A DNA stretch of 64,000 nucleotides from Pseudomonadota bacterium. GTDB lineage: Bacteria; Pseudomonadota; Gammaproteobacteria; Steroidobacterales; Steroidobacteraceae. The position numbers were made by a program, and so were the translations under genes. The notes under the pieces were generated by a model. That model had not been told where the DNA came from, searched no databases, and saw nothing but the letters and a program-made list of their open reading frames with translations. Positions 6,492 to 22,148 of the stretch are shown piece by piece; position 1 is the stretch's first letter, and every line of letters starts with the position of its first letter. The stretch covers positions 1-64,000 of the forward strand of contig JAPLSH010000014.1 in the NCBI GenBank assembly GCA_026398735.1, read 5' to 3'.

Positions 6492-7634
6492 ATGAGTTCA
6501 CACAAGCGTTTCCTGACCACGCACGTGGGCAGCCTGCCGCGCCGCGAAGACCTGATGCACTACATGTTCGCGCGTGAGGATGGCATCCCGCTCGACCCGC
6601 AGGCGATGGAGGACAAGATCGTCGAAGAGGTCGCCCATGTGGCCGCCTCCCAGATCAAGGCTGGCGTCGACATCATCAACGACGGTGAAATGTCCAAGCC
6701 CAGCTATGCCACCTACGTAAAGGACCGTCTCAACGGTTTCGGCGGCACCGGCAACAGCTTCCTGTTTCAGGACATCGAAGATTTTCCCAACACCAAGTCG
6801 CGGGTGTTTGCAGATCCGGGTCGTAAGCACCGTAAAACCCCCGCCTGCAACGGTCCGGTGAGCATGCGCGATGTCGAGGCACCCACGCGTGATGCCGAGC
6901 GACTCAAGCTGGCCATTGCCAACAACAAGCCCACCGGCACGTTCCTTAGCTCTGCGTCACCGGGCGTCACCACGTTCTTCTTCCGCAATGACTACTACCC
7001 CAGTCATCAGGACTATGTGTTTGCGGTGGCCGAGGCGCTGCGTCATGAGTACGAGGCCATCGTCAACGCGGGCATGATGCTGCAGATCGACTGCCCGGAC
7101 CTTGCCATGGGTCGTCACACGCAGTTTGCCAAGCTGGGCCTCAATGAGTTCCTGGCGGCGATGGAGCTGCATATCGAGGCGATGAACCGCGCGCTGGTCA
7201 ACATCCCCGCAGAGAAGGTGCGCATGCACCTGTGCTGGGGCAACTATCCCGGCCCGCATCACTTCGACGTGCCGTTCGCCGACATCGTCTCGCGCCTGTG
7301 GAAGGCCAAGCCGCATGCCATCCAATTTGAAGCAGCCAATCCGCGCCATGCGCATGAGTGGGCGATGTTCGAGTCGGTCAAGTTGCCCGAGGGCAAGGTG
7401 CTGATCCCCTGCGTCATCGAATGCCAGTCCAATTACATCGAGCATCCGGAGCTGGTGGCACAGCGCATCGGCCGCTATGCCCATCTGGTGGGCCGTGACA
7501 ATGTCATGGCCGGTGTGGATTGCGGCTTCAGCATCCATGTCGGTTCGGGCGGTGTGGACCCGGACGTGGTGTGGGCCAAGATGGCGGTGCTGGCCGAAGG
7601 TGCCGCACTGGCCAGCAAGAAGTTCTGGCCCTGA
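6492..7634 (+). CDS. Short MetE-like zinc protein (cobalamin-independent methionine synthase / epoxyalkane:CoM transferase family)
   Basis: A 380-residue protein with only the C-terminal (catalytic) half of MetE, which is normally about 750 residues. It opens with TTHVGSLPRR, the typical start of the short family members that include epoxyalkane:coenzyme M transferase. All four MetE-type zinc ligands are present: His246 and Cys248 (MHLCWG), Glu280 (IQFEAANP) and Cys344 (GVDCGF). These enzymes activate a thiol for alkyl transfer. AGGAAG lies eight bases before the ATG. It lies alone on the + strand at the edge of the catabolic island and converges on the hydrolase gene. No coenzyme M genes are visible, so a CoM-transferase role is unlikely. 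The real acceptor and donor are unknown. Confidence 0.85.
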   Translation: MSSHKRFLTTHVGSLPRREDLMHYMFAREDGIPLDPQAMEDKIVEEVAHVAASQIKAGVDIINDGEMSKPSYATYVKDRLNGFGGTGNSFLFQDIEDFPNTKSRVFADPGRKHRKTPACNGPVSMRDVEAPTRDAERLKLAIANNKPTGTFLSSASPGVTTFFFRNDYYPSHQDYVFAVAEALRHEYEAIVNAGMMLQIDCPDLAMGRHTQFAKLGLNEFLAAMELHIEAMNRALVNIPAEKVRMHLCWGNYPGPHHFDVPFADIVSRLWKAKPHAIQFEAANPRHAHEWAMFESVKLPEGKVLIPCVIECQSNYIEHPELVAQRIGRYAHLVGRDNVMAGVDCGFSIHVGSGGVDPDVVWAKMAVLAEGAALASKKFWP

Positions 7635-7659
7635 TAGCGGCCTGACAGATCAGCCGACT

Positions 7660-8511
7660 TTACGGACCGGCACACCGGGTCGTGAAGTCGGCCAAGTCTG
7701 CGTTAAAGCGTTCTGGTTGCTCCCAGAACGCCATATGACCGACGTTCTCATACATCCGTAATTGCGCGTCGGGCGCTTGAGAAGTCGTGTACTGCGCCAT
7801 GGCCGGCAGGTTGATCTGGTCCTGCTCACCATGCACCACCAGCACGGGCACCTTCAGGGAGCGCAGGGTGCTGCCGTAATCCAGACCGGGCCGGCGCATA
7901 TTCGCCCGCACCCACGCTGGCACCTGCAGGTTGTAGTCCAGCATGAACTGCGCCTGCTCAGCAGGTAGCGGATGCACGACGCAACTGGCCAGCATCTGCC
8001 GCGTAGCGGCCTCATTGATCAGCGGGTCTGCATCACCCATCTCGGCTAGCAAGGCCGCTGCTGGCCCCAGCAGCTCGGGTGTGGCCCGTGAGGTGGCATT
8101 GACCATCAGCAAGCCGCCGATAGCGCCATCACCGTACTCGCTGAGGTAATCCAGGGCGATGCGCCCTGCATACGACCACGCCACCAACACAGGCCGGTGC
8201 AGACCCAGCGCAGTGATGACGGCATGGACTTCATCTGCCCAGCGTTTGGGTTCTTGGTAGTAGCGCGCGCCGCGAGGTTTGTCGGAGTCACCATGACCAC
8301 GCAGGTCATAGGTGACTAATCGAAGTTGACGCGCGAGAGGGCTGCCCACTTGCAGGGCCCAGGCTTTGTGGCTTTGCGAGTAGCCATGCAACAGCAGCAC
8401 ATCTGAAAGACGCCCGGCTTCACCGGGCGCCCCCCAATCCTGCACCGCTACCGCGACCCCATCGGGCGTCAGGACACGCGAGGGCGCGTGTCGCGGTAGC
8501 GTTAAGGTCAC
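7660..8511 (-). CDS. Alpha/beta-fold hydrolase, cluster-associated
   Basis: A 283-residue cytoplasmic alpha/beta hydrolase. Nucleophile elbow AWSYAG carries the catalytic Ser, the acid is in VVHGEQDQ and the His in NVGHMAFWEQPERF. An oxyanion-type HGYSQS loop is near the N-terminus. It starts with GTG inside the stop of the dioxygenase gene (GTGA), so the two are translationally coupled. Hydrolases paired with extradiol dioxygenases usually hydrolyse the ring-cleavage product or a related ester or C-C bond, and pairs of this kind are known from hydroquinone-responsive loci (MhqD with MhqO). The exact substrate is not visible. Confidence 0.85.
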   Translation of the reverse strand: MTLTLPRHAPSRVLTPDGVAVAVQDWGAPGEAGRLSDVLLLHGYSQSHKAWALQVGSPLARQLRLVTYDLRGHGDSDKPRGARYYQEPKRWADEVHAVITALGLHRPVLVAWSYAGRIALDYLSEYGDGAIGGLLMVNATSRATPELLGPAAALLAEMGDADPLINEAATRQMLASCVVHPLPAEQAQFMLDYNLQVPAWVRANMRRPGLDYGSTLRSLKVPVLVVHGEQDQINLPAMAQYTTSQAPDAQLRMYENVGHMAFWEQPERFNADLADFTTRCAGP

Positions 8512-9464
8512 AGAACGATAGGGTCGTTCAGGCGACGCAGAAGCTCTTCCTTCTGAGACTCGAACTGCGGCGAGATGATGAAGGCCTGACCCAAGGTCTC
8601 CTCCGGCTCATCGACCGTAAAGCCCAGCGTGTGGGCCGCTTCGAACAGCGCACCGGCCGGGGTACGCACGTACACCGACTGGAAGTAGCCGCGGTGCTTG
8701 CGATCCGACGTATCGGTGAAGCCCAGGCCTTCGAGTTCGTTCTTGACCTGCTCTTGCACGTCCAGATCGGGAATGCCGAATGCACCGTGGTGCACCATGC
8801 CTTCGCCATACGACCAGTTGCCCGGCGCCAGGTCTGGCTTGAGCAGCAGGTCTACGGTCTTGGCAGCACCACCGCCGTTGACGGTGTAGCGAGTGAACTC
8901 GCCATCGGTGCCGACCTTCTCGTGGTTCCAGCCTTCGCTCATGAAGAAGTGCATGTCTTCCAGATCGCGCAGCGTGACGGTCCAGCTATGGAAGCCGCGA
9001 ATCGCGTACTGCTTGGGCACGTAGGGCGAATCGAAGGGCGCACGCGTGTCGCCGGCATCTTCGATCAACTCAAAATGCAGGGCGGGGCAGTCCGGATGCT
9101 CCATCTTGAGCACCTTCTGGCCGAAGCGCTCATAGCGCTCCAGGACGTTGACGGCCTTCTTGCCAAGGTTCTCGTTCCACCACTCCAGCGAACCGGTAGG
9201 CACTGAATAGCTGGTGAGGCTGATTTGACCCGAGCCTGACTTGGCCTTGCGACCGGTGCGGCGCCAGGGGAACGTGGTGGTCAGGTTGCCGGGCGAGCCC
9301 AGACGGTCAGAGAAGTACAGGTGATACACCGGCTCTTTTCCGTCGTACAGAAGCGTGCGCTTGACCAGGTTCAAACCCAGCGTTTTGACGAAGAAGTTGA
9401 CATCACCTTGCGCGGTGCCCGTGCACAGCGTGATGTGATGCAACCCTTGAATGCGGTCGGACAT
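8508..9464 (-). CDS. VOC-family ring-cleaving dioxygenase (MhqO-like)
   Basis: A 318-residue vicinal-oxygen-chelate protein with two glyoxalase-type modules. Likely metal ligands are His in GLHHITL, His in GMVHHGAFG and Glu in GALFEAAH, matching extradiol or hydroquinone-type dioxygenases of the MhqO/MhqA group. I start at ATG 9464. A longer frame opens with TTG at 9476, but GGGGGT directly precedes the ATG. It forms a two-gene operon with the hydrolase and is divergent from maleylacetate reductase. It gives the island a second oxygenolytic ring-opening activity beside the intradiol enzyme, or detoxifies quinol intermediates. Activity class is likely and substrate is inferred. Confidence 0.87.
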   Translation of the reverse strand: MSDRIQGLHHITLCTGTAQGDVNFFVKTLGLNLVKRTLLYDGKEPVYHLYFSDRLGSPGNLTTTFPWRRTGRKAKSGSGQISLTSYSVPTGSLEWWNENLGKKAVNVLERYERFGQKVLKMEHPDCPALHFELIEDAGDTRAPFDSPYVPKQYAIRGFHSWTVTLRDLEDMHFFMSEGWNHEKVGTDGEFTRYTVNGGGAAKTVDLLLKPDLAPGNWSYGEGMVHHGAFGIPDLDVQEQVKNELEGLGFTDTSDRKHRGYFQSVYVRTPAGALFEAAHTLGFTVDEPEETLGQAFIISPQFESQKEELLRRLNDPIVL

Positions 9465-9476
9465 CAGGACCCCCAA

Positions 9477-9490
9477 CGCGGCATGCCGCG
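9477..9490. promoter_or_regulatory. Perfect 14-bp palindrome in divergent promoter region
   Basis: CGCGGCATGCCGCG is a perfect palindrome twelve bases upstream of the dioxygenase start, within the gap between it and the maleylacetate reductase gene. It could be an operator for a dimeric regulator or a leader hairpin of the leftward transcript. No regulator gene is in the island, so the ligand is unknown. Confidence 0.35.
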
Positions 9491-9599
9491 GCTTGTTTCG
9501 ATTCGTTGAAAACTCTAGGACCGATGCGCAGTGCTGTCAAACTTCATGCACGCGGTTTGCAGGGTTTTACAGCTACCCATCAGTGCTGGACAAGCTCTG

Positions 9600-10733
9600 A
9601 TGCGCACCGTCAATATGACCCAAATAACAGCGGGGGATGGCAGCCTTGTCACACGGGTACGGCCTTTGAACGCGTTCACCTATTCCAGTGCCGCAGCGCG
9701 GGTCGTATTCGGCCCCGGCAGCCTAGAGCATTTAGAGCGCGAAATTGCATTGTTGGGCGCCCGTCGGGCTCTGGTGCTGTGCACGCCGGAGCAGACTGGT
9801 ATCGCCACTGCGGTGCTGCAGCGGCTTGGGGAGCGCGGCGCAGGCTTGTTCGCCAAGGCCGCCATGCACGTGCCCATCGAAGTGGCGCGCGAGGCGCGAG
9901 CCGAGGCGCTGCGTCTGGGCGCCGATTGCGCGGTGGCGGTGGGTGGCGGTTCTACCATCGGCTTGGGCAAGGCCATCGCGCTGGAGGCCCCGCCCGGCGC
10001 GCTGCCCGTGCTGGCCATCCCCACGACTTATGCAGGCTCCGAGATGACGCCCATCTATGGCATCACCGAAGGCGGCATCAAAAAGACCGGCAAAGACGAG
10101 CGCGTTTTGCCGCGCACCGTCATCTATGACGCACAGCTCACGCTCAGTTTGCCCGTCGGCTTGTCGATGACCAGCGGCCTCAATGCCATCGCGCATTCTG
10201 CTGAGGGCCTCTATGCCCGCGATAGCAACCCGATCATGGCGTTGCTGGCCGAAGAGGGCATCCGTGCGCTGGCGGCCGCTCTGCCGCTGGTTCAAGCGCG
10301 GCCCGACGACATCGAGGCGCGGTCCCAGGCCCAATACGGCGCCTGGCTGTGTGGCACGGTGCTGGGCAATGTCGGCATGGCGCTGCATCACAAGCTCTGT
10401 CACACGCTGGGCGGCAGCTTCAATCTGCCGCATGCCGAGACCCACGCTATCGTGCTGCCGCATGCGCTGGCCTACAACGCCGCGGCGGTACCGCAGGCCA
10501 TGGCCGCGTTGCGTCGCGCCTTGGGCTGCGACGATCCGGCGCAGGCGCTGTTTGAACTGGGCCAGCGGCTGGGCGTGCCAGCAGGCCTTGCGGCATTGGG
10601 TATGCCCGCCGAGGGCATCGATCGGGCTGTCGACATCGCCCTGCAAAATGCGTATTGGAATCCAAGGCCGCTAGAGAAGGCTGCCTTGCACAACCTGTTG
10701 AGTCGGGCCCATGCGGGTCTGGCTCCTGCCTGA
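9600..10733 (+). CDS. Maleylacetate reductase
   Basis: An iron-containing-alcohol-dehydrogenase-like enzyme of about 377 residues that reduces maleylacetate to 3-oxoadipate with NAD(P)H. Family signatures are the nucleotide loop VAVGGGSTIGLGKA, the PTTYAGSEMTPIYG block and HHKLCHTLGG followed by PHAETHAIVLPHALAYN. It is short like known maleylacetate reductases (about 350-360). Start choice is uncertain: ATG 9600 or ATG 9615, and an in-frame ATG at 9531 would add a poorly conserved tail. It is the first gene of a three-gene operon with the 3-oxoadipate CoA-transferase subunits, exactly the next step. That context makes the assignment strong. Confidence 0.9.
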   Translation: MRTVNMTQITAGDGSLVTRVRPLNAFTYSSAAARVVFGPGSLEHLEREIALLGARRALVLCTPEQTGIATAVLQRLGERGAGLFAKAAMHVPIEVAREARAEALRLGADCAVAVGGGSTIGLGKAIALEAPPGALPVLAIPTTYAGSEMTPIYGITEGGIKKTGKDERVLPRTVIYDAQLTLSLPVGLSMTSGLNAIAHSAEGLYARDSNPIMALLAEEGIRALAAALPLVQARPDDIEARSQAQYGAWLCGTVLGNVGMALHHKLCHTLGGSFNLPHAETHAIVLPHALAYNAAAVPQAMAALRRALGCDDPAQALFELGQRLGVPAGLAALGMPAEGIDRAVDIALQNAYWNPRPLEKAALHNLLSRAHAGLAPA

Positions 10734-10748
10734 CCTTCCGGGAGTGAC

Positions 10749-11609
10749 ATGACCGAGTTTGTGACGTTACGCGAGGCCGTTGCCGGTCTCATCCACGATG
10801 GCGACTGCGTGGCGATGGAAGGCTTCACGCACCTTATCCCCAGCGCCGCCGGCCACGAGGTCATCCGCCAAGGCCGCAAAGACCTGTATCTGGTGCGCAT
10901 GACGCCCGATCTGATCTACGACCAGTTGATCGGCTCCGGTTGTGTCAGCCGGCTGCGTTTTTCTTGGGGTGGAAATCCGGGTGTGGGTTCGTTGCACCGG
11001 TTGCGCGATGCCGTCGAGCGCGGTTGGCCGGGCCCGCTGGCGCTGGAAGAACACAGCCACGCCGACATGGCCAATGCCTATGTGGCCGGTGCCGCCAACC
11101 TGCCGTTCTCGGTGCTGCGCGGCTACCAAGGTTCCGACCTGCCGCGCCACAACACCAACATCCGCTTTATCCGCTGCCCGTTCACCGATGAAGAGCTGGC
11201 GGTCAGTCCCGCCATACGCCCCGACGTGACGGTGATCCACGCTCAAAAGGCCGACCGCCGCGGCAACGTGTTGCTGTGGGGCATCTTGGGCGTGCAGAAA
11301 GAAGCCGCTATGGCAGCCAAGCGCGTCATCGTCACGGTTGAAGAGATCGTCGACTCGCTCGATGCACCGCCCAACGCCTGCATCCTGCCGCGCGTGGTGG
11401 TCAATGCGGTGTGCCTGCAGCCCGGCGGTGCGTTCCCGTCTTATGCGCATGGCTACTATGCGCGCGACAACCGCTATTACATTGCTTGGGATGATATTGC
11501 TCGCGATCGCGAGACCTTCAAGGCTTTGATGCAAAAGCACGTACACAACACGGCAGACTTTAATGAGTTCCGTCGTGTGTTGGCCGAGAGCGCCGGAGCT
11601 GCAGCATGA
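10749..11609 (+). CDS. catI: 3-oxoadipate CoA-transferase subunit A (CatI/PcaI-like)
   Basis: Alpha subunit (286 residues) of a family-I CoA-transferase that moves CoA from succinyl-CoA to 3-oxoadipate. Length and sequence style match the long CatI type, also related to glutaconate CoA-transferase, rather than the short PcaI. Visible are the MEGFTHLIPSAAGHEV start, the FSWGGNPGVGSLHRLRDAVE block and an RPDVTVIHAQKADRRGN segment. GGGAGTG precedes the ATG and the gene follows maleylacetate reductase by 15 bases. Its stop overlaps the subunit B start (ATGA), as expected for a heteromeric enzyme. Membership is certain and substrate is supported by context. Confidence 0.9.
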   Translation: MTEFVTLREAVAGLIHDGDCVAMEGFTHLIPSAAGHEVIRQGRKDLYLVRMTPDLIYDQLIGSGCVSRLRFSWGGNPGVGSLHRLRDAVERGWPGPLALEEHSHADMANAYVAGAANLPFSVLRGYQGSDLPRHNTNIRFIRCPFTDEELAVSPAIRPDVTVIHAQKADRRGNVLLWGILGVQKEAAMAAKRVIVTVEEIVDSLDAPPNACILPRVVVNAVCLQPGGAFPSYAHGYYARDNRYYIAWDDIARDRETFKALMQKHVHNTADFNEFRRVLAESAGAAA

Positions 11610-12391
11610 GCTACACCACCAACGAGATCATGACGGTGGCCGCTGCACGACGATTGCCCGATGGGTCCGTGTGCTTTGTGGGCATTGGCTTGCCGTCGAC
11701 CGCGGCCAACTTGGCCAGGCTTACGCATGCGCCCGATGTCACGCTCATCTATGAGTCGGGTCCCATCGGTGCACGACCCGATGTGCTGCCGCTGTCGATT
11801 GGTGACGGCGAACTAGCAGAGACTGCAGACACTGTGGTGCCCACGCCCGAGATCTTCCGCTATTGGCTGCAGGGCGGCCGCGTCGATGTGGGCTTTCTCG
11901 GTACGGCGCAGATCGATCGCTTTGCCAATCTCAACACCACGGTCATCGGGCCTTACGACAAGCCCAAGGTGCGGTTGCCCGGCGCTGGTGGTGCACCCGA
12001 GATCGCCAGCAATGCGCGCGAAGTGCTGATCATCGTTAAGCAGACGGCACGCAGCTTTGTGGCCAAGCTCGACTTCGTGACCTCTGCAGGTCATCTGGAC
12101 GGTGGCGATGTACGCGCGCGCCTTAAGCTTCCCGGCAAGGGCCCGGTCGCGGTGATTACTGACCTGTGCATCATGGAGCCGGATCCGGTCACGCGTGAAC
12201 TGACTGTAGTGAGCTTGCACGAAGGGATCACCCGCGAGCAGGTCACCGCAGCCACCGGTTGGCCGGTGCGTTTTGCCGACAGTCTGGGCACTACGCCAGC
12301 ACCCACCGATCACGAGTTGCAGGTGCTGCGTGCGTTGCAGCAGCGCACCGCCCTGGCACATGGCACCGCGGGCGGCGGCGGCGGCGACTGA
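11606..12391 (+). CDS. catJ: 3-oxoadipate CoA-transferase subunit B (CatJ/PcaJ-like)
   Basis: Beta subunit (261 residues) of the same CoA-transferase. The catalytic glutamate that forms the enzyme-CoA thioester is expected in LIYESGPIGA near residue 52. GVGLP-type loops appear as CFVGIGLPSTAANLA, and LKLPGKGPVAVITDLCIMEPDP is typical. It ends in Gly-rich TAGGGGGD. It overlaps subunit A by four bases and converges on the thiolase gene, whose stop codon follows after one base. It supplies 3-oxoadipyl-CoA, the thiolase substrate. Confidence 0.9.
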   Translation: MSYTTNEIMTVAAARRLPDGSVCFVGIGLPSTAANLARLTHAPDVTLIYESGPIGARPDVLPLSIGDGELAETADTVVPTPEIFRYWLQGGRVDVGFLGTAQIDRFANLNTTVIGPYDKPKVRLPGAGGAPEIASNAREVLIIVKQTARSFVAKLDFVTSAGHLDGGDVRARLKLPGKGPVAVITDLCIMEPDPVTRELTVVSLHEGITREQVTAATGWPVRFADSLGTTPAPTDHELQVLRALQQRTALAHGTAGGGGGD

Positions 12392-12392
12392 C

Positions 12393-13595
12393 CTAGACGC
12401 GTTCGATCAACATCGCGATGCCCTGACCCACGCCGATGCACATGGTGCACAGGGCATAGCGGCCACCGTTCAGTTGCAACTGCCAAGCGGCAGTGGTCGC
12501 CAGACGCGCACCACTGGCACCCAGGGGGTGACCCAGTGCGATGGCACCCCCGTTGGGATTCACGCGGGCATCGTCATCGGCCAGGCCCAGTTGGCGCGTG
12601 ACTGCCAACGCCTGTGCGGCAAAGGCTTCGTTGAGCTCGATGACATCGATGTCAGCCATCGACAAGCCCGTCTGCTGGAGCAACTTGCGCACGGCAGGCA
12701 CAGGACCAATACCCATGATGCGCGGCGCCACGCCGGCAGTGGCAGTGGCCACTATGCGCGCCAAGGGCCGCAAGCCGTGGCGTTGGATAGCATCCTGGCT
12801 GGCCAGCAGCAGCGCACAACTGCCGTCGTTAATGCCCGAGGCATTGCCGGCCGTTACGGTGCCATCGGCACGCACTACGCCTTTGAGCTTGGTCAAACTT
12901 TCCAACGTGGTATCTGCGCGCGGGTGTTCGTCGATCTCGACGCGCGTATCGCCCTTGCGACCTTTAATGATCACCGGTGTGATCTCGATGGCAAAGCGTC
13001 CGGCAGCCTGCGCAGCGGCGCAACGCTGTTGGCTGCGCAGCGCAAAGGCATCCTGATCAGCACGAGAAATAGAGAACTCTGCTGCGACGTTCTCTGCAGT
13101 CTCGATCATGGCATCGACACCAAAGCGGGCCTGCATCAACGGATTGATGAAGCGCCAGCCCATGGTGGTGTCTTCGATCTTGGCAGCGCGTGAATAGGCG
13201 CTGTCAGCTTTACCCATGACATAGGGCGCGCGGGACATACCCTCGACGCCGCCGGCAATCACCAGTTGGGCTTCGCCGGTTTTAATGGCACGAGCAGCTT
13301 GGGTGACGGCTTCGATACCCGATGCGCACAGACGGTTGACGGTGATGCCGGTGACACTCTCTGGCAGGCCTGACAGCAGCACTGCCATGCGTGCAACGTT
13401 GCGATTGTCTTCGCCGGCCTGATTAGCACAGCCCATAAACACATCATCGACCGCAGACCAATCCACCTGCGTGTTGCGAGCCTGCAAGGCGGTCAGGGGG
13501 ATAGCCGCCAAGTCGTCCACCCGAACACTGGCAAGGCCACCGCCATAGCGGCCGATGGGTGTACGGATCGCATCGCAGATAAACGCATCACGCAT
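12393..13595 (-). CDS. pcaF: 3-oxoadipyl-CoA thiolase
   Basis: A 400-residue thiolase cleaving 3-oxoadipyl-CoA to succinyl-CoA and acetyl-CoA, the end of the 3-oxoadipate pathway. It follows the PcaF pattern closely: [15 protein letters not shown] at the start, [16 protein letters not shown], nucleophile Cys90 in NRLCASG, His in [14 protein letters not shown] and the second Cys in TMCIGVGQG. The length equals the family norm. I start at ATG 13595, preceded by AAGGAG. A TTG at 13601 is also possible. The start overlaps the stop of the CaiB-type gene, so this is the last gene of the leftward operon. Confidence 0.94.
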
Positions 13596-14724
13596 TGCCA
13601 AGCTCCTTGCGGATCTCTTCGTTGTGTTCGCCCAGTGTGGGCGGCGCAGTCACTTCCATGGCGCGCTCGCCGTCGAAAGACACTGGGGAACGGATGGTAC
13701 GGAACGAACCCATCACCGGGTGCTGCGCTTCGGTGAGCAGTTGCAGGTGCTGCACCTGCGGATCGGCCAGCACTTCGGCGGCGTCGTACATAGGTGAATG
13801 CGGCACGTCTTGGGCCTTGAGCAGCTCGCACCACTGCGCGCGCGGGCGACGCTTGAAGTGTTCGCCCAGCACTTTGATGAGGATCTCTTGATTAGCGATG
13901 CGCTGATCGCGGCTGCTGAACTGCGGATCCTGCAGCAACTGCGGGTTTTCGATCGCGTTGGCCAAGCCTTGCCAGAATTTTTCGGGCGATGACATATGCA
14001 GGGCGATCCACTTGCCGTCGCCGCATTCCAGAACATACGACTGCGATACACGCGGCCGGCTGTAAGGGCCCATCAGTTCGTCGGCCTGCAGATAGTGCGT
14101 GAACGAGTCGAGATTGAAGTGGCTCATGGCCTCGAGCATCGACACTTCGACCTTGCGACCCACACCGGTGCGACCGCGCTCGACCAGTGCACCCATGATG
14201 CCGTAGGCGGCATAAAAGCCAGTCAGCGAATCGGCTATGGCCGGGCCGACCACGCGCGGGTTGTCGGGATTGACCAGCAGATGCAAGAAGCCTGCAGCGG
14301 CCTGTGCAACGGTGTCGTAGGCGGGGCTGTCGGCTTGCGGGCCGGTGGAGCCAAAGCCACTGATGGCGCAGTACACCAAGCGCGGATTGATCTCACGCAA
14401 GCGCGCTTCGCCAGCCCCCAACTTCTCTGCTACACCGGGCCGAAAGTTCTGGATGTATACATCGGCGCCGGCGATGAGCTTATCGAACACCTTGCGGTCT
14501 TCGGGGTTCTTGGCATCGATCGTGAGGCTGCGCTTGTTGCGGTTGTAGGTCTGAAAGTGCGGGCTGTACAAGCCGCCCTTGAAGGCACGAAACGGATCGC
14601 CGCCATTGGGTGCTTCGACCTTGATGACATCTGCACCCAGATCCGCCAGCAGCATGCCTGCGGCAGGGCCGGTGATGAACGTGCCTTGCTCGATGACGCG
14701 AACGCCTTGCAACACCTTGATCAT
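13588..14724 (-). CDS. CaiB/BaiF family III CoA-transferase
   Basis: A 378-residue family-III CoA-transferase, which moves CoA between acids through an aspartyl intermediate. Characteristic are [33 protein letters not shown] at the N-terminus (quoted in part: [20 protein letters not shown]), the [17 protein letters not shown] block with the usual catalytic Asp region upstream, and [13 protein letters not shown]. It overlaps the lyase-like gene by ATGA and the thiolase by 8 bp. It should activate an organic acid of the island as a CoA ester, perhaps for the adjacent citryl-CoA-lyase-like enzyme. Acid identity is unknown. Confidence 0.92.
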
Positions 14725-15509
14725 TTGGCAGCCTCTCCGGTGTACTGCAACTCGCGCGTGGCTTGGTAGGTGAGTGCAAAGCCAATCGGCTGCTGCAGCT
14801 CTTCATACAAGTGCGCGATGAGCCCGGCTGTGCGCGCCAGGATGGGCACACCCTTGAGTGCTTCCAGCGGAAAGCCTGCGCCCAGTAGCACCGAGGGAAT
14901 GGCACCTGACACATTCAGGCGCAGGTCCTTGCCGATGAGGCTGGCGGTCAGCGATTCGACTTCGCGTGCGATAGCAATAAAACGCAGATCGGTGCCGGCT
15001 GCAGTGGCTACTGCGAACAGCGCATCGACGCGCGGATCGCGCTGCTTGTGCTGCGGGTGGCCATAGCCTGGGATGGGCTTGCGCGCGGCCTTCCATGCTT
15101 TCATCACGGTGGTGGCCGCTTCGGTGAGCGGAGTGCCTGCTTGCACCAGCGCATCGATCTCGGTGAACAGCCGCCCCGCGGTCTCTGATGCTCCCAGAAT
15201 AACTGAGCCGCAGCCCAGGATGCCTGCCGCCACTGCGCCCTGCATGGCATCGGGTGCTGCAGCGAAGGTCATGCGTGAGGCTTGCACGCTGGGTACCAAG
15301 CCGTGTTCGGCTATGGCTACCAGCGTGGCATCGAGCACTGCCAGTTCTGCTGTTGTGCCCAAACGGCCCGTGAGCAACAGAAAGAAGTGACCGGTGAAGC
15401 CGATCTTGCCGATGAGGTCCCGGGCCAAGTCATGGCCGCGCACCACGATGGTGTCTTCGTTCGAGGTGCAGATCGCCGTAGTCGGGATCGTGCTCTTACC
15501 AATCTTCAT
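14721..15509 (-). CDS. Citryl-CoA lyase-like protein (short citrate synthase homologue)
   Basis: A 262-residue citrate-synthase-fold protein lacking the N-terminal half of citrate synthase (normally about 430). It matches the short citryl-CoA lyase type, which cleaves citryl-CoA to acetyl-CoA and oxaloacetate. Visible blocks are FTGHFFLLLTGRLG, AAGILGCGSVILGASETAG and KPIPGYGHPQHKQRDPR (CoA and active-site His region), then LNVSGAIPSVLLGAGFPLEAL. It overlaps the CaiB-type gene by ATGA, so the pair likely makes and then cleaves a 3-hydroxyacyl-CoA. In this island the substrate is probably not citrate itself, which is inference. Ribosome-binding site is weak. Confidence 0.85.
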   Translation of the reverse strand: MKIGKSTIPTTAICTSNEDTIVVRGHDLARDLIGKIGFTGHFFLLLTGRLGTTAELAVLDATLVAIAEHGLVPSVQASRMTFAAAPDAMQGAVAAGILGCGSVILGASETAGRLFTEIDALVQAGTPLTEAATTVMKAWKAARKPIPGYGHPQHKQRDPRVDALFAVATAAGTDLRFIAIAREVESLTASLIGKDLRLNVSGAIPSVLLGAGFPLEALKGVPILARTAGLIAHLYEELQQPIGFALTYQATRELQYTGEAAK

Positions 15510-15530
15510 GCGTTATCCAAAGGTTGTCGC

Positions 15531-16409
15531 TCAGGCGGAGACGGGGGCCAGACGGAAGTTGTAACTGGTCGTGTAGTACTGCTTGGTCATGACGGTGCCA
15601 TCGGGCGCAGTGCCCGGGGCGTGGGGTGCGAAGGCTACGACCAAGCTGTCGCGCTTGCCGAACACCGCATCCTGATCCAGGTAGGGGCTGTTGGCCACGA
15701 ACAGGTGTGTGGTCACTGGCACATGGCCCTCTGCCGACACCATCATGTGAATGTGTCCGGGCCGGTTGATGGAGCGGTGCGTGGCGCGCATCAAGTCGCC
15801 CACTGGGCCATCGCTGGGAATGGGGTAGAAAGTCGGCCGGATCGACCAGAAGCGGAACTGTCCCTGTGCGTCGGTGCGGATCTTGCCGCGAGCCTGCATG
15901 CTGGGCGTGGCAGACAGTTGCACGTCATAGTTGCCCTCGCCATCGCCGCTCCACAGGTCCAACAGCGCACCAGGCAACGGCGTGCCGGCCACATCCGTGA
16001 CCGTGCCGGTGTAGTAAGCCGGTTCGCCAACCACGCCTTCTGCAATGTTGCCGCCCAAGCCCACTTCAGGCGCGCCTTCCCAGTAAAAAGGGCCTTCGAC
16101 AGTAGCCTCGGTGGCTCCCACGATGCTTTTGCTCTCGCGCGCCTGTGTGAGCGAGACCACCATCATCGACAGACCCAGTACGTCCGACAGCAGAATGAAC
16201 TCTGGGCGGCGCTCGGTGCTGATCTGCCCGGTCTTGGTCAGAAATTGCAGACCTGCCAGCCACTCTTCGGGCTTGAGGTCGACCTCACGCGTGAAGGCGT
16301 GCAGATGCTTGACGAGGCTGGACATGATCTCACCCAAGCGACCGGCCTGCGGCGTGGCGAAGGCTTTCATCACTTCCTGCGTCAGCAGGTCTTGGTTGTA
16401 ATCGGACAT
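15531..16409 (-). CDS. Intradiol ring-cleavage dioxygenase, hydroxyquinol 1,2-dioxygenase type
   Basis: A 292-residue non-haem Fe(III) dioxygenase. It has the N-terminal helical dimerisation domain (about 1-100) and a catalytic beta-sandwich. Fe ligands appear as Tyr in GEGNYDVQ, Tyr in RPTFYPIPSDGPVG, and His pair in RPGHIHMMV. The WSGDGEGNY and GPVGDLMRAT patterns agree with hydroxyquinol or chlorocatechol enzymes. I start at ATG 16409, with GGAG ten bases upstream. A longer open frame to 16478 would overlap the next gene. Product would be maleylacetate if the substrate is hydroxyquinol, which feeds directly into the reductase, CoA-transferase and thiolase nearby. Confidence 0.92.
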   Translation of the reverse strand: MSDYNQDLLTQEVMKAFATPQAGRLGEIMSSLVKHLHAFTREVDLKPEEWLAGLQFLTKTGQISTERRPEFILLSDVLGLSMMVVSLTQARESKSIVGATEATVEGPFYWEGAPEVGLGGNIAEGVVGEPAYYTGTVTDVAGTPLPGALLDLWSGDGEGNYDVQLSATPSMQARGKIRTDAQGQFRFWSIRPTFYPIPSDGPVGDLMRATHRSINRPGHIHMMVSAEGHVPVTTHLFVANSPYLDQDAVFGKRDSLVVAFAPHAPGTAPDGTVMTKQYYTTSYNFRLAPVSA

Positions 16410-16432
16410 GAGGGTGTCTCCGTTGAATAGGG

Positions 16433-17599
16433 TTAATGCCGACGACGGGTGACGACGAAGCTTTCGTCGTTGAACCACAGGCCGCCATGCTTTTGCAGCA
16501 CAGCAGAGGTCACGTCGAGGTATTGCGAGTTCTGCATCACCTGCTCTACGCGCTCGTCTTCAATCTGCGCCACATAGATGGCCGCATTCCAAGCTGCAAA
16601 CAGCGTAGAGGTGCCCACGCGATCGCCGATCTCTGACGGCAGCGTATGCATGTGATAGCGAAACATCGCGCGATCGTCGGGCACAGTGGGCAGCAGGAAG
16701 TCGCGAGCGTCTTTGCCCAATTCGGCACGCAGTGCAGCCAGCAGCTGGTGACGGTCGATCTGGAAGGGGCTCTCGCCGGGCCACAATTGCTCGACGATTT
16801 CCAGCGCCGGATCGCGACCACAGCTTTGCACTGCGACCAGTTTGCCGCCCGGTGCCAGGGCGCGTGCCAACGGCGCCAGCACTTTCTGCGCCTTGAACTG
16901 CGCCGACATACGCGCGCGCCACGGCTGGGAGGCGAGGATCAAATCGTATTGACCCATCGCATGGCCCGGTCGTGGGATCACGCTGTCGAGCATGAACTTG
17001 TGATCTTCGCGATAGATCACCAGCACTGTGGGGCGTACGGGCATAGGGTTGCCGGTGCGCGGTGAAGGACGCGTTTGCCAGCCGTGGGCCAGCGTGGCGC
17101 CGAGTGCTTCAATCTGTTCTGCATAATCATGCGACGACGTACCGGCCAGTCGCAGCTCTTGCCAGTTGAAGGCAGCCGCCGCCTGCACATCACGCGTCAT
17201 CAGTTGTGGCGCTTCGGCGTAGTTGAGATTGGTGATGACCAGTACAGTGGCCGGGTGCTCCACAAAGCGATCGGGCATTTTCTCAAGGCCCAGTCGCACG
17301 TCTTCAAGACTGATCTCTTTGGCCACTGCCAGCAGCGGCACAGCCGGATGCAAGGCATGCACCTGCCGCATCAAGCGCGACAGGATGGTGGCATCGCCCA
17401 TGCCGGCATCAAACAGCTTCATGGCCGGCGGCGAGGGATGCAGCGAGGCCAGTTCCTTGGAGACGCGCCGTGCTACAGCAGACTTTTCGCTGCAGGTGCT
17501 GACGAAGGCCAGGTACTTTTGACGGTTGTCGTAAAAGCGAAATGGCGGGCTGTCGGCTTCACTGCTGACGGTGCTATTCACGAGTATGGGTTTGCTCAT
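16433..17599 (-). CDS. Class I methyltransferase-fold protein of unknown substrate
   Basis: A 388-residue protein with a Rossmann SAM-binding pattern: motif I is MKLFDAGMGDATILSRLM near residue 60 and the post-motif region is ALAPGGKLVAVQSCGRDP near 235. The middle insertion and C-terminal half (GLWFNDESFVV at the end) do not match a methyltransferase subfamily I can name. GGGGA precedes the start, and its ATG overlaps the stop of the MetE-like gene (ATGA), while the dioxygenase begins 23 bases after it. That coupling suggests the two act together, for instance in moving a methyl group off or onto an aromatic intermediate. Fold is fairly sure, function is open. Confidence 0.75.
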   Translation of the reverse strand: MSKPILVNSTVSSEADSPPFRFYDNRQKYLAFVSTCSEKSAVARRVSKELASLHPSPPAMKLFDAGMGDATILSRLMRQVHALHPAVPLLAVAKEISLEDVRLGLEKMPDRFVEHPATVLVITNLNYAEAPQLMTRDVQAAAAFNWQELRLAGTSSHDYAEQIEALGATLAHGWQTRPSPRTGNPMPVRPTVLVIYREDHKFMLDSVIPRPGHAMGQYDLILASQPWRARMSAQFKAQKVLAPLARALAPGGKLVAVQSCGRDPALEIVEQLWPGESPFQIDRHQLLAALRAELGKDARDFLLPTVPDDRAMFRYHMHTLPSEIGDRVGTSTLFAAWNAAIYVAQIEDERVEQVMQNSQYLDVTSAVLQKHGGLWFNDESFVVTRRRH

Positions 17600-18618
17600 C
17601 GTTTTCCCCTGACCAGCGCAGCGCCGGCAACCATGGCTTCAAGCTTGCCCACTGCAGTGGCGCGCGGCAGGTACTTCATGCCGCAATCGGGCGCCACGAT
17701 GATGTCGGCGGCATCCACATAAGGCAGTGCGCGTTCAATGCGATGTGCCACCACGTCTGGCGTTTCGATGTTCGGGTCCGACAGGTCGATCACACCGAGG
17801 ATGAACTTCTTGCCCTTGAGCGGCACCAGCGTGCTGCAGTCCAGGTTCGATTGCGCTGTCTCGATCGACAGCTGCTTGCAGCTGCACTGCGCAAACTCGG
17901 GCAGAAACGAATAGCCCGAGGGGCGCTCGTGGATGATCGCTGCATAGCCGAAGCAGATATGCACGGCGGTGTTGCCCGTTACACCCAGCAGTGCTGCGTT
18001 GAGTGCATCCAGACCCCAGGCGCGTGCTTCATCGGGACGCGCCTGCATGTACGGCTCATCGATCTGTACAACATCTGCGCCCGCCGCAAACAGATCTTTG
18101 ATCTCTGCGTTGAGTGCAATTGCATAGTCCATTGCGGCCAGCTGGCGGCTACCGCCGTAGTGATCAATCTGTGCCTGCTGCGCCATCGTGAACGGACCGG
18201 GTACGGTGATCTTTACCTGACGCTTGCTGTGACGCTTCATGAACAGCAAGTCATCGACAGTCACGGCATGACGGCGGCTGATGGGCCCTATGACACGCGG
18301 CACCGGGTTGGGGTGACCGCTGCGATCCAGTGCAGTGCCAGGGTTGTCCAAGTCCACGCCATTGAGTGCGGTGGCAAAGTGGTTGGAATAGCTTTCGCGA
18401 CGGATCTCACCGTCGGTGATGATGTCGATGCCAGCATCTTCCTGCGCCTTGATCGCCATGATCGTGGCGTCTTCCTGTGCTTCGGCCAGGTACTGCGCCG
18501 GGATGCGCCACAGTTCGCGTGCGCGGACGCGCGGTGGGAAACGGCCGGCCAACTTCTGGCGGTCGATAAGCCATTCGGGCTGCGGAAAACTACCAACTAG
18601 TGTCGTGGGGAACAGCAT
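17596..18618 (-). CDS. Short MetE-like zinc methyltransferase-family protein
   Basis: A 340-residue stand-alone version of the MetE catalytic domain. It starts FPTTLVGSFPQPEWL and retains the complete zinc tetrad: His220 and Cys222 (VHICFGY), Glu253 (LSIETAQ) and Cys312 (APDCGMK). Core-MetE proteins of this size are known as folate-independent methionine synthases and relatives. Here the gene is coupled to a methyltransferase-fold gene inside an aromatic catabolic operon and not to methionine or MesX-like (DUF1852) genes. CGGAG lies six bases before the ATG. A role in taking a methyl group from the growth substrate to a thiol such as homocysteine is my inference. Confidence 0.85.
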   Translation of the reverse strand: MLFPTTLVGSFPQPEWLIDRQKLAGRFPPRVRARELWRIPAQYLAEAQEDATIMAIKAQEDAGIDIITDGEIRRESYSNHFATALNGVDLDNPGTALDRSGHPNPVPRVIGPISRRHAVTVDDLLFMKRHSKRQVKITVPGPFTMAQQAQIDHYGGSRQLAAMDYAIALNAEIKDLFAAGADVVQIDEPYMQARPDEARAWGLDALNAALLGVTGNTAVHICFGYAAIIHERPSGYSFLPEFAQCSCKQLSIETAQSNLDCSTLVPLKGKKFILGVIDLSDPNIETPDVVAHRIERALPYVDAADIIVAPDCGMKYLPRATAVGKLEAMVAGAALVRGKR

Positions 18619-18645
18619 GGAAAACTCCGTATTAAATTCGTGTGA

Positions 18646-20274
18646 TCAGCCCAATGCTTTGAGCAGTGCGCGCCGCTCGGCGCCTGCAGGATCGTCGCCC
18701 AGCCATGATTGCGTGTTGAACACCATGACCTTGCGGTTGGCGGGCGAGTAGGCCGGCCAGGCAGCAAGACCCGGTGCCGAAGGCGTGCCATGGTGCGCAA
18801 AATTAGCCCAAGCGGTGCTCATCGTGGCGGCCAGTGCTTCGTTGCCTTCGCCGGTGCCCACCAGTGCGGCGACACGGATGGTGTTGTCGAACATGAAGCC
18901 CAGTTCCATGGTGTGCATCGCCCTGCGATGGCCATCCATCGCCGGTGATTCCCAGTCGAAGCGGTACACATACACCGGCGCTTTGCCGCGCGCGATTTTG
19001 CGCTCGGCCAGCACGATGGTGTTGGCGCCGAAGATGCGATCGGTGTTGATCAGCACCAGCAGGTCAAAGGGCGAGGCGTTGGGGTTGCCCTGACGATACG
19101 CACCGATCAGTGCCTGCGCATCGGCCTTGGGGAACCCTGCCTTGATACGCTGCAGCAGACCGGCCTCGTCCATCGCGCGCTCTGTTGCATTGATGGGCAT
19201 GAAGGGCGGGAAGGTGGCCTCATGACGGTTGCTGCCAATGAGCAGCGGCACATCATCAGAGACCGCCGGCGAATCCGGATCAAACGGATGACGCGGCAAG
19301 GCCAGACCATCGACTACCGGCGCAAAGGTGCCGCCGGTCACGCCCGCGGCACGCAGCTTGGGCTGGATGTTGAAGTAGGCCGACAGCAGTCGCTCCTGCG
19401 GCACGGCTTGCAGGCCACGTACATCACCGGCCTTAAGGCCCAGTTCGCTAATCAGCAGTTCTGCGGCACGCGCGCCGTCTTGGGCAGTGCCCGAGCGAAT
19501 GCCAGGACCGCTTTGGATGATGGCTTTGTGAAACAGACCCTTCGCGGCCGGCATCGCCATCACTGTCGATACCTTGGCGCCACCGCCGGACTCACCAAAG
19601 ATAGTGACGTTGGACGGATCGCCACCAAAGGCGGCGATGTGAGTCTTGACCCACTGCAGCACCTGCACCACATCGAGGATGCCGACATTGCCCGAACTGG
19701 CAAATGCCTCGCCGCCGATGCTGGCCAGATGCGTATAGCCGAACACGTTGAGGCGATGATTGACGCCCACGAACACGATGTCGCCACGACGCGCGAGATT
19801 GGCACCGTCATATAGCGGTGCGGAGGCTGAGCCAGAAGAGAAGCCGCCGCCATGCAACCACACCATGACCGGGCGTTTGCCCGTTATCGCAGGCGTCCAC
19901 ACGTTCACTGCCAGACAGTCTTCGGCTTCGCGCACGCCCGGCGGGTCCTGCGGTAGCGCGGCGCGCATGATCACGTTGGGATCGCCGCCGGCCGGATTGC
20001 TCTGCGGTGAGCTGGAGCCAAACAGCGTGGCTTCGCGCACGCCCTTCCAAGGCTTGACCGGTTGCGGTGGCATAAAGCGGTTGGCGCCGCCAGTGGGCGC
20101 GCCATAGGGTAGGCCACGGAAGGTCAAGATGCCGTGATCGATGAGCCCGCGGACCTTGCCGCTGGGGGTATCGACGATCGGGCCTTCAGCCAGTTGCGCC
20201 AGCGCCGGCGTTGCCAGCGGGGCCAGCAGTCCTGCAGCCAGCAGTTCGCGCCGCGAGAGATCCACACGTTTCAT
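18646..20274 (-). CDS. Exported type-B carboxylesterase (Tat signal)
   Basis: A 542-residue carboxylesterase/cholinesterase-family enzyme. The N-terminus has a twin-arginine motif (SRRELLAAGLLAPLATPALA), so it is probably folded before export to the periplasm. Catalytic Ser is in FGESGGGAK and the oxyanion region in MVWLHGGGFSSGSAS. The fold start GLIDHGILTFRGLPYG is typical. It is the first gene of the leftward operon, 27 bases upstream of the MetE-like gene, and an inverted repeat lies in its upstream region. It probably releases the aromatic substrate or its acyl group from an ester. A second exported type-B esterase is at 31523-33187. Confidence 0.92.
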   Translation of the reverse strand: MKRVDLSRRELLAAGLLAPLATPALAQLAEGPIVDTPSGKVRGLIDHGILTFRGLPYGAPTGGANRFMPPQPVKPWKGVREATLFGSSSPQSNPAGGDPNVIMRAALPQDPPGVREAEDCLAVNVWTPAITGKRPVMVWLHGGGFSSGSASAPLYDGANLARRGDIVFVGVNHRLNVFGYTHLASIGGEAFASSGNVGILDVVQVLQWVKTHIAAFGGDPSNVTIFGESGGGAKVSTVMAMPAAKGLFHKAIIQSGPGIRSGTAQDGARAAELLISELGLKAGDVRGLQAVPQERLLSAYFNIQPKLRAAGVTGGTFAPVVDGLALPRHPFDPDSPAVSDDVPLLIGSNRHEATFPPFMPINATERAMDEAGLLQRIKAGFPKADAQALIGAYRQGNPNASPFDLLVLINTDRIFGANTIVLAERKIARGKAPVYVYRFDWESPAMDGHRRAMHTMELGFMFDNTIRVAALVGTGEGNEALAATMSTAWANFAHHGTPSAPGLAAWPAYSPANRKVMVFNTQSWLGDDPAGAERRALLKALG

Positions 20275-20412: not shown

Positions 20413-22011
20413 ATGGACATCTTTTGGGGGCGCTATTCGGCAGTGTTTTATTCGGCGATCGGTGCGCTGTTTGCCGCCCTGCTGGCGGGGCAACAGCCGC
20501 TGTGGTGGTGGGCAGCGGCGGCATTGCTGGCGCTGACCGCCATCGGCTTATACAACCTGCGGCAAAAACAGCATCCGGTGCTGGCCAACTATCCGTTGCT
20601 CGGCTATCTGCGTTATTTCCTCGAGAGCCTGCGACCCGAGCTTCGCCAGTATTTTCTCGAGTCCGACGACGAACAGGTGCCCTATTCGCGCAATCAGCGC
20701 GCCATGGTGTATCAGCGCGCTAAACAGCAGGTCGCCGTGCGGCCATTTGGCTCGTTGACGGACATGTATGCCGATGAGTTCGACTGGCTCAACCACTCCA
20801 TACGACCCGTGCCGGTTCCCGATTCGGACTTCCGTATTACGGTGGGAGAGGGGCCTGCGGCCTATGCCATGTCGGTGCTCAATATCTCGGGCACCTCGTT
20901 TGGCGCGTTGTCTCCGCCGGCCATCCAAGCTCTCAATGCGGGTGCGCGTCTGGGCGGCTTTGCACATAACACCGGCGAGGGGTCGCTCTCGCCTTACCAC
21001 CTGGCCGGCGGCGGCGACATCATCTGGCAGGTTGCCACGGGCTATTTTGGCTGTCGCACACCGGACGGACTGTTTGATGCCGGGCAATTTGCGGCCAAAG
21101 CTGCAGCGCCGCAGGTGCGCATGATCGAGATCAAACTCAGCCAGGGCGCCAAGCCCGGCCACGGCGGCATGCTGCTGGCCGCCAAGGTCACGGCCGAAAT
21201 TGCGGCGATCCGCGGCGTGCCGCAGGGCAAGGACTGCATCTCGCCGGCGTTTCACACGGCATTTTCCACGCCGGACGAGTTACTGCAGTTTGCCGCGCAA
21301 TTGCGCCGCATGTCCGGTGGCAAGCCGGTCGGTGTGAAGCTGTGCATCGGCCATCCCTGGGAGTTCATCGCGCTGGTCAAGGCGATGGTGGAGTCGGGAC
21401 TGCTGCTCGACTTCATTACGGTCGATGGGGCCGAGGGTGGTACCGGCGCCGCACCGGTTGAATTCACCGATCATCTGGGCACCCCGCTGCAGGATGCCTT
21501 GGTGTTCGTCGACAACTGCCTGACCGGCGCGGGCCTGCGCGAGCGCGTCAAAATTGGCGCGTCCGGCCGCATGGTCAGTGCCTATGACATCGTGCGCGGC
21601 TGTGCGTTGGGGGCCGACTGGATCAACATGGCGCGGCCGTTCATGTTTGCGCTGGGCTGCATCCAGGCGCGTGACTGTGCCTCGGGGAACTGTCCTACCG
21701 GGCTTGCCACGATGAACCCGGGTCGCTATCGCGTTGTCGATGTAGATATCAAGGCGCAACGCGTGGCCAACTTCCATCACAACACGGTGCATGCGCTGGC
21801 CGAGCTGCTGGCGGCCAGCGGCGTCAGCCATCCGGGCCAGTTGACCCGCCACCACATCATGCGGCGGCTGTCGGGCAGTCGCGTGTTGCCGATGGACGAG
21901 TTGTATCCCCAGGTGGAGCCTGGCGCGCTGCTACGCGGTGGCCCCGTAGGCGATGCGCGGCTGACGCAGTTCTGGCCGCGCGTTAGCGGGGCCAGTTTCG
22001 GCCTGCACTGA
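20413..22011 (+). CDS. FMN-binding glutamate-synthase-family protein, membrane-anchored
   Basis: A 532-residue protein with the GltB synthase (TIM-barrel) domain but no amidotransferase domain. ATG 20413 is preceded by CAGGAGACGGC, a strong site, so the longer upstream frame is rejected. Two N-terminal hydrophobic segments (about 8-25 and 28-48) anchor it. Domain landmarks are [25 protein letters not shown] (FMN/2-oxoglutarate region), [16 protein letters not shown] and a 3Fe-4S cysteine set C-x5-C-x4-C in [15 protein letters not shown]. The physiological reaction of these stand-alone proteins is not established. It is divergent from the esterase and may share its control region. Confidence 0.88.
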
Positions 22012-22148
22012 CGCTGCCGTCGACTGATCGACAGTCTAAGGCTCGACCCGGATACGTCCGGCGTGGCAAAATGTGGGATTACCGGCAGCCGCCCCGACAG
22101 GTGCGGCAACGCCAGTCCCTTTCCCCAGAACTGCAACGGAACCCCGCA

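Follow-up and report, generated by a model that had tools for sequence, protein, structure and literature searches.

Positions 6492-20274 of a 64,000-nucleotide stretch of DNA (the window), which starts a contig (JAPLSH010000014.1; C17 of genome G000) of a Steroidobacteraceae genome (GCA_026398735.1; 2.77 Mb, 98.4% complete), hold 13 genes, g1 to g13, that we consider here as an island for aromatic catabolism. A preliminary description had read them as a complete route from hydroxyquinol to succinyl-coenzyme A (CoA) and acetyl-CoA, set in tightly coupled operons together with an unrecognised front end. Every gene it had named was recovered, by Pfam and NCBIfam searches or, for g11, by predicted structure, and the lengths of the intergenic gaps (from −14 to +27 nt among the genes of g7-g13; +15 and −4 nt for g4-g6; −4 nt for g3-g2) bear out the coupling, with four transcription units: g1 (+), g3-g2 (−), g4-g5-g6 (+) and g13-g12-g11-g10-g9-g8-g7 (−). 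The ring-cleavage and 3-oxoadipate steps are of known kinds. The combination of a dioxygenase, CoA activation, the citrate-synthase-fold protein g9 and a MetE-like zinc protein looks like an uncharacterised variant. We propose, tentatively and with somewhat less than even confidence, that the island degrades lignin-type methoxylated para-diphenols (methoxyhydroquinone, hydroxyquinol and dimethoxy relatives) through two ring-cleavage arms, in which the ring is opened first and the methyl group is then passed to homocysteine.

Two ring-cleavage dioxygenases and the 3-oxoadipate genes

The gene labels given earlier agree with the families found, with two corrections, one to g9 (see below) and one to g3. 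By homology g3, which had been called a VOC dioxygenase, is specifically PcpA/LinE-like, a member of the hydroquinone 1,2-dioxygenase family. It aligns with 2,6-dichlorohydroquinone 1,2-dioxygenase (4HUZ) across residues 3-317 (408 bits) and its His-His-Glu metal ligands are kept in all seven distinct sequences. It shares with the PcpA/LinE enzymes not only sequence and metal ligands but also a neighbouring maleylacetate reductase gene. The characterised members of that family are known for chlorinated hydroquinones, as the title of 4HUZ also indicates, whereas it is genes of O-methyl metabolism that surround g3. On database scores g4 is a maleylacetate reductase; its best match is an iron-containing alcohol dehydrogenase (3JZD, 480 bits) and the named maleylacetate reductases 3W5S and 3HL0 follow with 399 and 397 bits. 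In another genome (G012, contig C181) g3-like, maleylacetate reductase and metE2-like genes are contiguous, metE2 being the gene type of g1.

The thiolase g7 passes the PcaF equivalog model TIGR02430 (709 bits, cut-off 597) and has the catalytic Cys/His/Cys. Both CoA-transferase subunits fall below the curated PcaI and PcaJ cut-offs (29 of 128.5 bits for TIGR02429 and 45 of 243.55 bits for TIGR02428), and g5 belongs to the glutaconate CoA-transferase branch (112 bits to 1POI). We take the CatIJ 3-oxoadipate transferases to be of that branch also, and g5/g6 may be CatIJ-like. The identities of g4-g7 support a lower pathway through 3-oxoadipate, and the link between this pathway and an unrecognised set of genes, as first described, is upheld.

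Together, g3, the maleylacetate reductase, the hydrolase, the CoA-transferase and the thiolase resemble by analogy a fungal route for methoxyhydroquinone. In Aspergillus niger, according to the available part of the report (PMC8336404), a dioxygenase (MhdA) opens the ring to a methyl ester, a reductase proposed by the authors follows, and an esterase (OmeA) yields 3-oxoadipate. That route is fungal, and the same part of the report describes neither a CaiB/g9 unit nor MetE-like enzymes, unlike the island. Excerpts from work on bacteria record that a hydroquinone dioxygenase turns over 2-methoxyhydroquinone at 59% of the rate with hydroquinone (PMC3222310), and that an MhqO-type gene adjoins a maleylacetate reductase in Agrobacterium (PMC12673573).

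The second dioxygenase, g10 (dox), is placed by its scores in the hydroxyquinol 1,2-dioxygenase branch, with 245 bits to 1TMX versus at most 113 bits to catechol 1,2-dioxygenases; its Tyr-Tyr-His-His iron ligands are present in 33 of 33 sequences. Enzymes of this branch usually act on rings without a carboxylate. The idea of one hydroxyquinol core fed by a front end is not supported; more probably the island has two arms of ring cleavage. A plain hydroxyquinol pathway as the sole explanation was rejected because g3, g8, g9 and the two MetE-like genes would then have no function. The CaiB protein g8 has succinate-hydroxymethylglutarate CoA-transferase as its nearest solved relative, and its catalytic Asp is kept in 41 of 41 sequences. 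The twin-arginine motif at the N-terminus of g13 was read from the sequence by eye, not from a signal-peptide program.

Table 1. Predicted genes of the island, with positions in the window
Gene	Predicted product	Position	Strand	Basis
g1	MetE2, short MetE-like zinc protein	6492..7634	+	PF01717 42 bits, cut-off 21; zinc and homocysteine residues
g2	Alpha/beta hydrolase, candidate esterase for ring-opened methyl ester	7660..8511	−	PF00561; 4 nt overlap with g3
g3	PcpA/LinE-like hydroquinone 1,2-dioxygenase	8508..9464 (longest ORF from 9476)	−	408 bits to 4HUZ
g4	Maleylacetate reductase (MAR)	9531..10733 (start uncertain, ATG at 9615 possible)	+	480 bits 3JZD, 399 bits 3W5S
g5	CoA-transferase subunit A, glutaconate-transferase branch	10749..11609	+	PF01144; 112 bits to 1POI
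g6	CoA-transferase subunit B	11606..12391	+	PF01144 170 bits
g7	3-oxoadipyl-CoA thiolase (PcaF)	12393..13601	−	TIGR02430 709 bits, cut-off 597; Cys/His/Cys
g8	CaiB/family III CoA-transferase	13588..14724	−	PF02515 371 bits
g9	Citrate-synthase-fold protein annotated citryl-CoA lyase; Ser201 for Asp	14721..15509	−	NF004868 315 bits, cut-off 193
g10 (dox)	Intradiol dioxygenase	15531..16409 (longest ORF from 16478)	−	PF00775/PF04444; 245 bits to 1TMX
g11	Class I SAM-methyltransferase-fold protein, optional island member	16433..17599	−	Predicted structure and Foldseek
g12	MetE1, short MetE-like zinc protein	17596..18618	−	PF01717 127 bits, cut-off 21; 195 bits to 3RPD
g13	Carboxylesterase (COesterase) with twin-arginine motif	18646..20274	−	PF00135 336 bits; motif by sequence
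ORF, open reading frame; SAM, S-adenosylmethionine.

Upstream of the island lie two genes for TonB-dependent receptors (1064-4378, −; 29-997, +, cut by the window start), which are not known to belong to it. On its other side, two ORFs of the minus strand (20548-21255 and 21280-21855) match nothing in Pfam or NCBIfam and look non-coding, and the gene for elongation factor G (22071-24289, +) is split over two frames, with the shift near 23.34-23.37 kb. The latter is a single open frame in a congener (G002; L038); the split may be a sequencing error or a real disruption.

A shared unit of dioxygenase, CaiB, g9 and MetE1

The order of the island genes is more than chance, as it recurs in that congener, where proteins are 96-99% identical where compared (g1 is cut by the end of the stretch), and in a metagenome-assembled genome (MAG; Umea_bin-08481, L066), at 64-88% identity and without g11.

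We also scored gene presence by tblastn in loci around metE1, the gene type of g12. The loci counted are the best 80 of at least 584 confirmed matches in named genomes, a non-random sample in which 17 of the 80 are shorter than 10 kb; ORF calling was crude, with some genes missed or misread. g9 was present in 32 loci, caiB in 30 and dox in 23, while 19 loci had all three, and a ring-cleavage gene (dox, LigB or a small VOC protein) accompanied g9 in 31 of its 32 loci. The genes of the hydroquinone arm were few: maleylacetate reductase in 4 loci, CoA-transferase subunits B and A in 2 and 1, and PcaF and a PcpA-like dioxygenase in 1 each. Homologous clusters therefore do not lack the front-end genes; these are what the clusters have in common, and it is the lower pathway that varies. 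The idea of a known core with an odd front end stands in that both sets are present, but their roles are reversed, the supposedly extra genes being widely shared and the 3-oxoadipate genes a rare addition. CaiB and g9 have more the look of another lower pathway than of an entry step. An esterase like g13 was found in 3 loci, which lends little support to the ester-linked starting compound suggested at first. g11 was present in 4 loci, LigM-like genes flanked 3, and there was an FMN_red/WrbA-type or flavin mononucleotide (FMN) reductase gene in 15. The RraA query was insensitive, matching none of the 80 loci though Pfam shows RraA in one of them (L074).

The setting of the unit differs between lineages. 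In Variovorax and Rhizobacter, LysR is followed by dox, g9, caiB, a branched-chain-type ABC transporter and metE1. Seven genomes of the order to which the island's genome belongs (G018, G165, G243, G247, G260, G262 and G266) instead have IclR, g9, caiB, a TonB receptor, a small VOC protein, metE2 and a hydrolase. metE1 lies inside this TonB-type island in G018, G165, G262 and G266 and on another contig in G243. Six of these genomes, all but G260, have a WrbA/FMN-reductase-type gene, and dox was found in G266 alone. A conserved large/small pair in two stretches (L039, L054) was considered as a molybdenum hydroxylase and rejected, the pair being a TonB receptor (by sequence) and a small VOC protein (by Pfam). 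Aminobacter MSH1 has an FMN reductase, IclR, a TRAP transporter, a CocE hydrolase, metE1, g9, caiB and a LigB-type dioxygenase; Sinorhizobium B11 has g9, caiB and LigB, with no metE1 in the stretch. On the Burkholderia glumae plasmid psl2395s2p (L147, 10012-18633) we find LysR, an intradiol dioxygenase, g9, a flavin (FAD) monooxygenase, CaiB, leuC/leuD and a TIM-barrel protein. Thus the dioxygenase type varies (intradiol, LigB or small VOC) within one setting. CaiB is itself exchanged for AMP-binding ligases, encoded by ORFs of 446-448 aa in three loci (L199, L201 and L219; Pfam check for L199) and of 555 aa in another (L075). This replacement suggests that a ring-cleavage product is activated with CoA, by CaiB or by the ligases that take its place, and that the unit makes and uses the resulting CoA ester. 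YciI-family proteins are encoded in two loci (L090, 8070-8369; L111, 4121-4528), and the L090 query matched 3 of the 80. TftG, a YciI-type dechlorinase, reportedly acts on chlorohydroxyquinol and may hint at the chemistry of YciI-bearing clusters.

The same partners are associated in a phylogenetic profile of 246 genomes of the order (E-value cut-offs g9 1e-30, metE1 1e-60, metE2 1e-80, dox 1e-40, g3 1e-60), in which 17 genomes carry g9, 25 metE1, 60 metE2, 15 dox and 5 g3. By one-sided Fisher tests, which ignore phylogenetic relatedness, g9 co-occurs with metE1 (11 of 17 genomes, p=9.8e-9) and metE2 (16 of 17, p=4e-10), metE1 with metE2 (16 genomes, p=9.6e-6) and g9 with dox (4 genomes, p=0.013). 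Where both genes are present, g9 lies at most 5.1 kb from metE1 in 9 of 11 genomes and at most 7.1 kb from metE2 in 13 of 16.

The variants bear on an alternative, which we regard as unlikely, in which the dioxygenase-CaiB-g9-MetE1 unit serves gallate-type acids such as 3-O-methylgallate, leading to 4-oxalomesaconate-like tricarboxylates, and the hydroquinone arm is unrelated. The LigB-type dioxygenases of Aminobacter and Sinorhizobium, the proximity of metE1 to LigB and RraA genes in Rhizobium/Neorhizobium and the leuCD hydratase of the B. glumae version would fit such substrates. In addition, the ring of 3-methylgallate is opened before its methyl group is lost, as the accessible part of a study of Novosphingobium/Sphingobium describes (PMC8091115). 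This order of events is the one that we propose for the island; the ring type differs, and no MetE-like, CaiB or g9 step is described in that part of the study. Against gallate-type acids stand the place of g10 in a branch favouring rings without a carboxylate and the 15 loci with FMN_red/WrbA-type or FMN-reductase genes, which suggest quinones, while maleylacetate reductase adjoins metE1 in 4 loci.

On the proposal of methoxylated para-diphenols, g9 would act on the CoA ester. It passes the NCBIfam citryl-CoA lyase model NF004868 (315 bits, cut-off 193) and is named accordingly by annotation pipelines, as in annotated plasmid records. Citryl-CoA lyase and ATP-citrate lyase (6HXP, 6NZY) share with g9 the fold, two His and an Arg near the C-terminus. 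Both His are kept in 41 of 41 g9 sequences, some of which come from near-identical congeners or from stretches of a single genome that overlap (L039 and L059, both on G266:C96); we take them to correspond to His900 and His975 of ATP-citrate lyase. The catalytic Asp of citryl-CoA lyase 6HXP (NVDG) is by contrast missing from all 41, replaced by Ser in 38 and Asn in 3. Among 16 g9 homologues from the order the position is Ser in 14, Thr in 1 and Asp in 1, and Ser is found in each of the 11 homologues that sit in MetE-like islands (L156-L163, L165, L168 and L169), even where identity falls to about 40%. The sole Asp-bearing homologue (L170) comes from a genome (G118) without a metE1 match, whose metE2-like genes are on other contigs. 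Since the Asp is missing and the MetE-linked homologues have Ser, the active site of the g9 family differs, and citryl-CoA lyase is a doubtful name for g9, judged from these residues.

Three other leads on g9 were dropped. A two-residue loss was rejected because the His at the LHGG position of citrate synthase is also missing in aligned ATP-citrate lyase chains, while the other His is kept; the extra His (GHPxH) is no diagnostic mark because the Asp-bearing L170 has it too; and the mention of citryl-CoA lyase in the consulted part of a Cupriavidus metallidurans genome paper is irrelevant to g9.

MetE-like proteins and methyl metabolism

All 92 distinct MetE1 sequences have the four zinc and three homocysteine residues; the corresponding residues are kept in all 26 MetE2 sequences too, apart from one change of Glu to Asp. 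Neither g1, whose relatives at NCBI are named cobalamin-independent methionine synthase II family, nor g12 matches the N-terminal folate-binding MetE domain PF08267. The nearest solved relative of g12 is the MesD structure 3RPD (195 bits).

MesD is a folate-independent methionine synthase (PMC7857596; this and the following statements rest on part of that paper) and g12 is likewise a single MetE domain with zinc and homocysteine residues. The threshold for MesD is about 55% identity or 390 bits to ACIAD3523; g12 was scored only against 3RPD. MesD needs oxygen and its methyl donor is not known. It pairs with MesX (DUF1852), which the authors predict to bind methyl or form a methylated substrate and to oxidise its substrate. 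The island has a dioxygenase, CaiB and g9 in place of MesX, whose family PF08908 is absent from the Pfam matches of the island proteins (island only; the control of a genome-wide PF08908 search was silent).

It may be, as an improbable alternative, that the MetE-like proteins are simply the methionine synthases of the cell, using another methyl donor, and adjoin the hydroquinone/hydroxyquinol island without acting on its intermediates. g1 and g12 are the only PF01717 genes in the genome, and neither PF02965 (MetH activation; controls positive in 7 of 14 genomes, with split MetH and PF02574 outside the search) nor PF08267 (controls positive in 10 of 14) has a match there. The nearest relation of g12, MesD, is a known core methionine synthase, and 42 of the 80 metE1 loci, some among housekeeping-looking genes, have none of the nine listed partners; MetE1 therefore has another setting too. 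Conversely, housekeeping genes seldom track one catabolic unit through Beta-, Gamma- and Alphaproteobacteria, and g9 mostly lies at the short distances from metE1 and metE2 given above.

In a second alternative, very improbable in our view, the MetE-like proteins would not transfer methyl groups at all; they would use zinc to attach a thiol to a quinone or to a product of ring cleavage, as thiol transferases. Epoxyalkane:coenzyme M transferase, which would be the model, is a MetE homologue; the zinc site would suit any thiol and quinone chemistry is likely here. The near-complete retention of the homocysteine residues argues against it, as does the company that MetE2 relatives keep. One in Novosphingobium pentaromativorans sits with a LigM/DesA-type aminomethyltransferase, MetF, PurU, LigA, LigB and FolD, and others lie near MetK, AhcY and FolD. 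In Ruegeria the neighbours of a MetE2 relative are a SAM-methyltransferase, a hydrolase and RraA; no aromatic genes were seen in the MetE2 neighbourhood of Rhodococcus NJ-530.

The proposed transfer of methyl groups from aromatic substrates can also be set beside another locus of the same genome (G000:C10, about 256.8-264.3 kb; L227, 6834-14279), where two genes encode LigM/DesA-like aminomethyltransferases with 58% identity to the Novosphingobium protein. Between them, judged by sequence, are genes for a GntR-like regulator and a TonB-type receptor. The methylated substrate suggested earlier gains support from the two homocysteine-type MetE-like enzymes, from the position of some relatives of both beside genes for aromatic O-demethylation or ring cleavage, and from the two LigM/DesA-like genes.

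The g11 protein has no Pfam or NCBIfam match. Its predicted structure (mean pLDDT 80.5) matches class I SAM-methyltransferases, the best Foldseek matches being histamine and fatty-acid O-methyltransferases. g11 is absent from L066 and L065. Of 98 related genomes 18 have a relative of it, in many cases with neither dox nor g9 alongside; none were found in viral contigs (a single pattern-based scan) or plasmids. In four stretches (L049, L050, L053 and L055) the relatives adjoin SAM-cycle and one-carbon genes, which in L053 and L055 include one that is MetF-like by sequence, and neither dox nor g9 was matched there. The neighbours in L050 include an adenosine-kinase-type PfkB, MetK, AhcY, FolD (all four by Pfam) and a MetE2-like gene. 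The four stretches represent a separate methyl-metabolism cluster around g11 relatives.

Proposed pathway

In the first arm, g3 would open (methoxy)hydroquinone and g4 would reduce the product; the methyl ester could be freed by the hydrolase g2 or by MetE2 (g1), and 3-oxoadipate would pass through g5/g6 and the thiolase g7 to succinyl-CoA and acetyl-CoA. In the second and less certain arm, g10 would open a more oxygenated ring, MetE1 (g12) would pass the methyl group of the ring-opened compound to homocysteine, CaiB (g8) would make a CoA ester and g9 would cleave or rearrange it. Zinc-activated homocysteine could plausibly take the methyl group from a methyl ester or vinylogous ester formed by ring opening. 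With three neighbouring ring oxygens, intradiol and extradiol cleavage should lead to the same skeleton after demethylation, which on chemical grounds would account for the swapping of dioxygenase types. The weakest point is the g9 step, for which we put forward, as a proposal only, the conversion of 2,4-dioxoadipyl-CoA to acetyl-CoA and oxaloacetate.

A more specific form of the scheme, which we hold to be doubtful, is that ring opening itself makes the activated methyl donor (a methyl ester or vinylogous methyl enol ether) and that the MetE-like zinc enzymes methylate homocysteine directly, so that methionine is supplied from catabolism with no need of folate or cobalamin; the dicarboxylate left by ring opening (e.g. 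2,4-dioxoadipate) would then be CoA-activated and split by the Asp-less citrate-synthase-fold enzyme into central metabolites.

Several points weigh against degradation of methoxylated para-diphenols in this manner. Besides the partnerless metE1 loci, the MetE-like genes may be the sole methionine synthases here, reason enough to maintain them even if they had no part in catabolism, and the two LigM/DesA-like genes could demethylate before ring cleavage. By its sequence g9 lacks the lyase Asp, and its reaction is conjectural. The TonB-type islands of G247 and G260 have metE2 and no metE1 match, and the B. glumae plasmid stretch, in which dox, g9 and caiB are present, contains no MetE-like gene. 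Methyl transfer is therefore not essential to the unit, and the related unit of B. glumae may handle a non-methylated substrate.

Among the open-licence PMC matches listed, none describes by title or abstract a unit of dioxygenase, CoA activation, g9 and MetE-like protein; subscription journals are mostly outside this set, making it weak evidence of absence. If the proposal is correct, a range of environmental Proteobacteria would have in common an uncharacterised route for methoxylated aromatics, with a CoA-dependent step at its end, that carries lignin-type methoxy groups to methionine, the g9-bearing loci including those in Variovorax, Rhizobacter, Caenimonas, Aquisalimonas, Sandarakinorhabdus and rhizobial MAGs. 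The citryl-CoA lyase annotation would be corrected and orphan MetE-like proteins would be given a role. Oxygen-dependent, folate-free methyl donors would become testable in cultivable strains, and, should direct methyl transfer from a ring-opened donor hold, it would suggest how the requirement of MesD for oxygen might be modelled.

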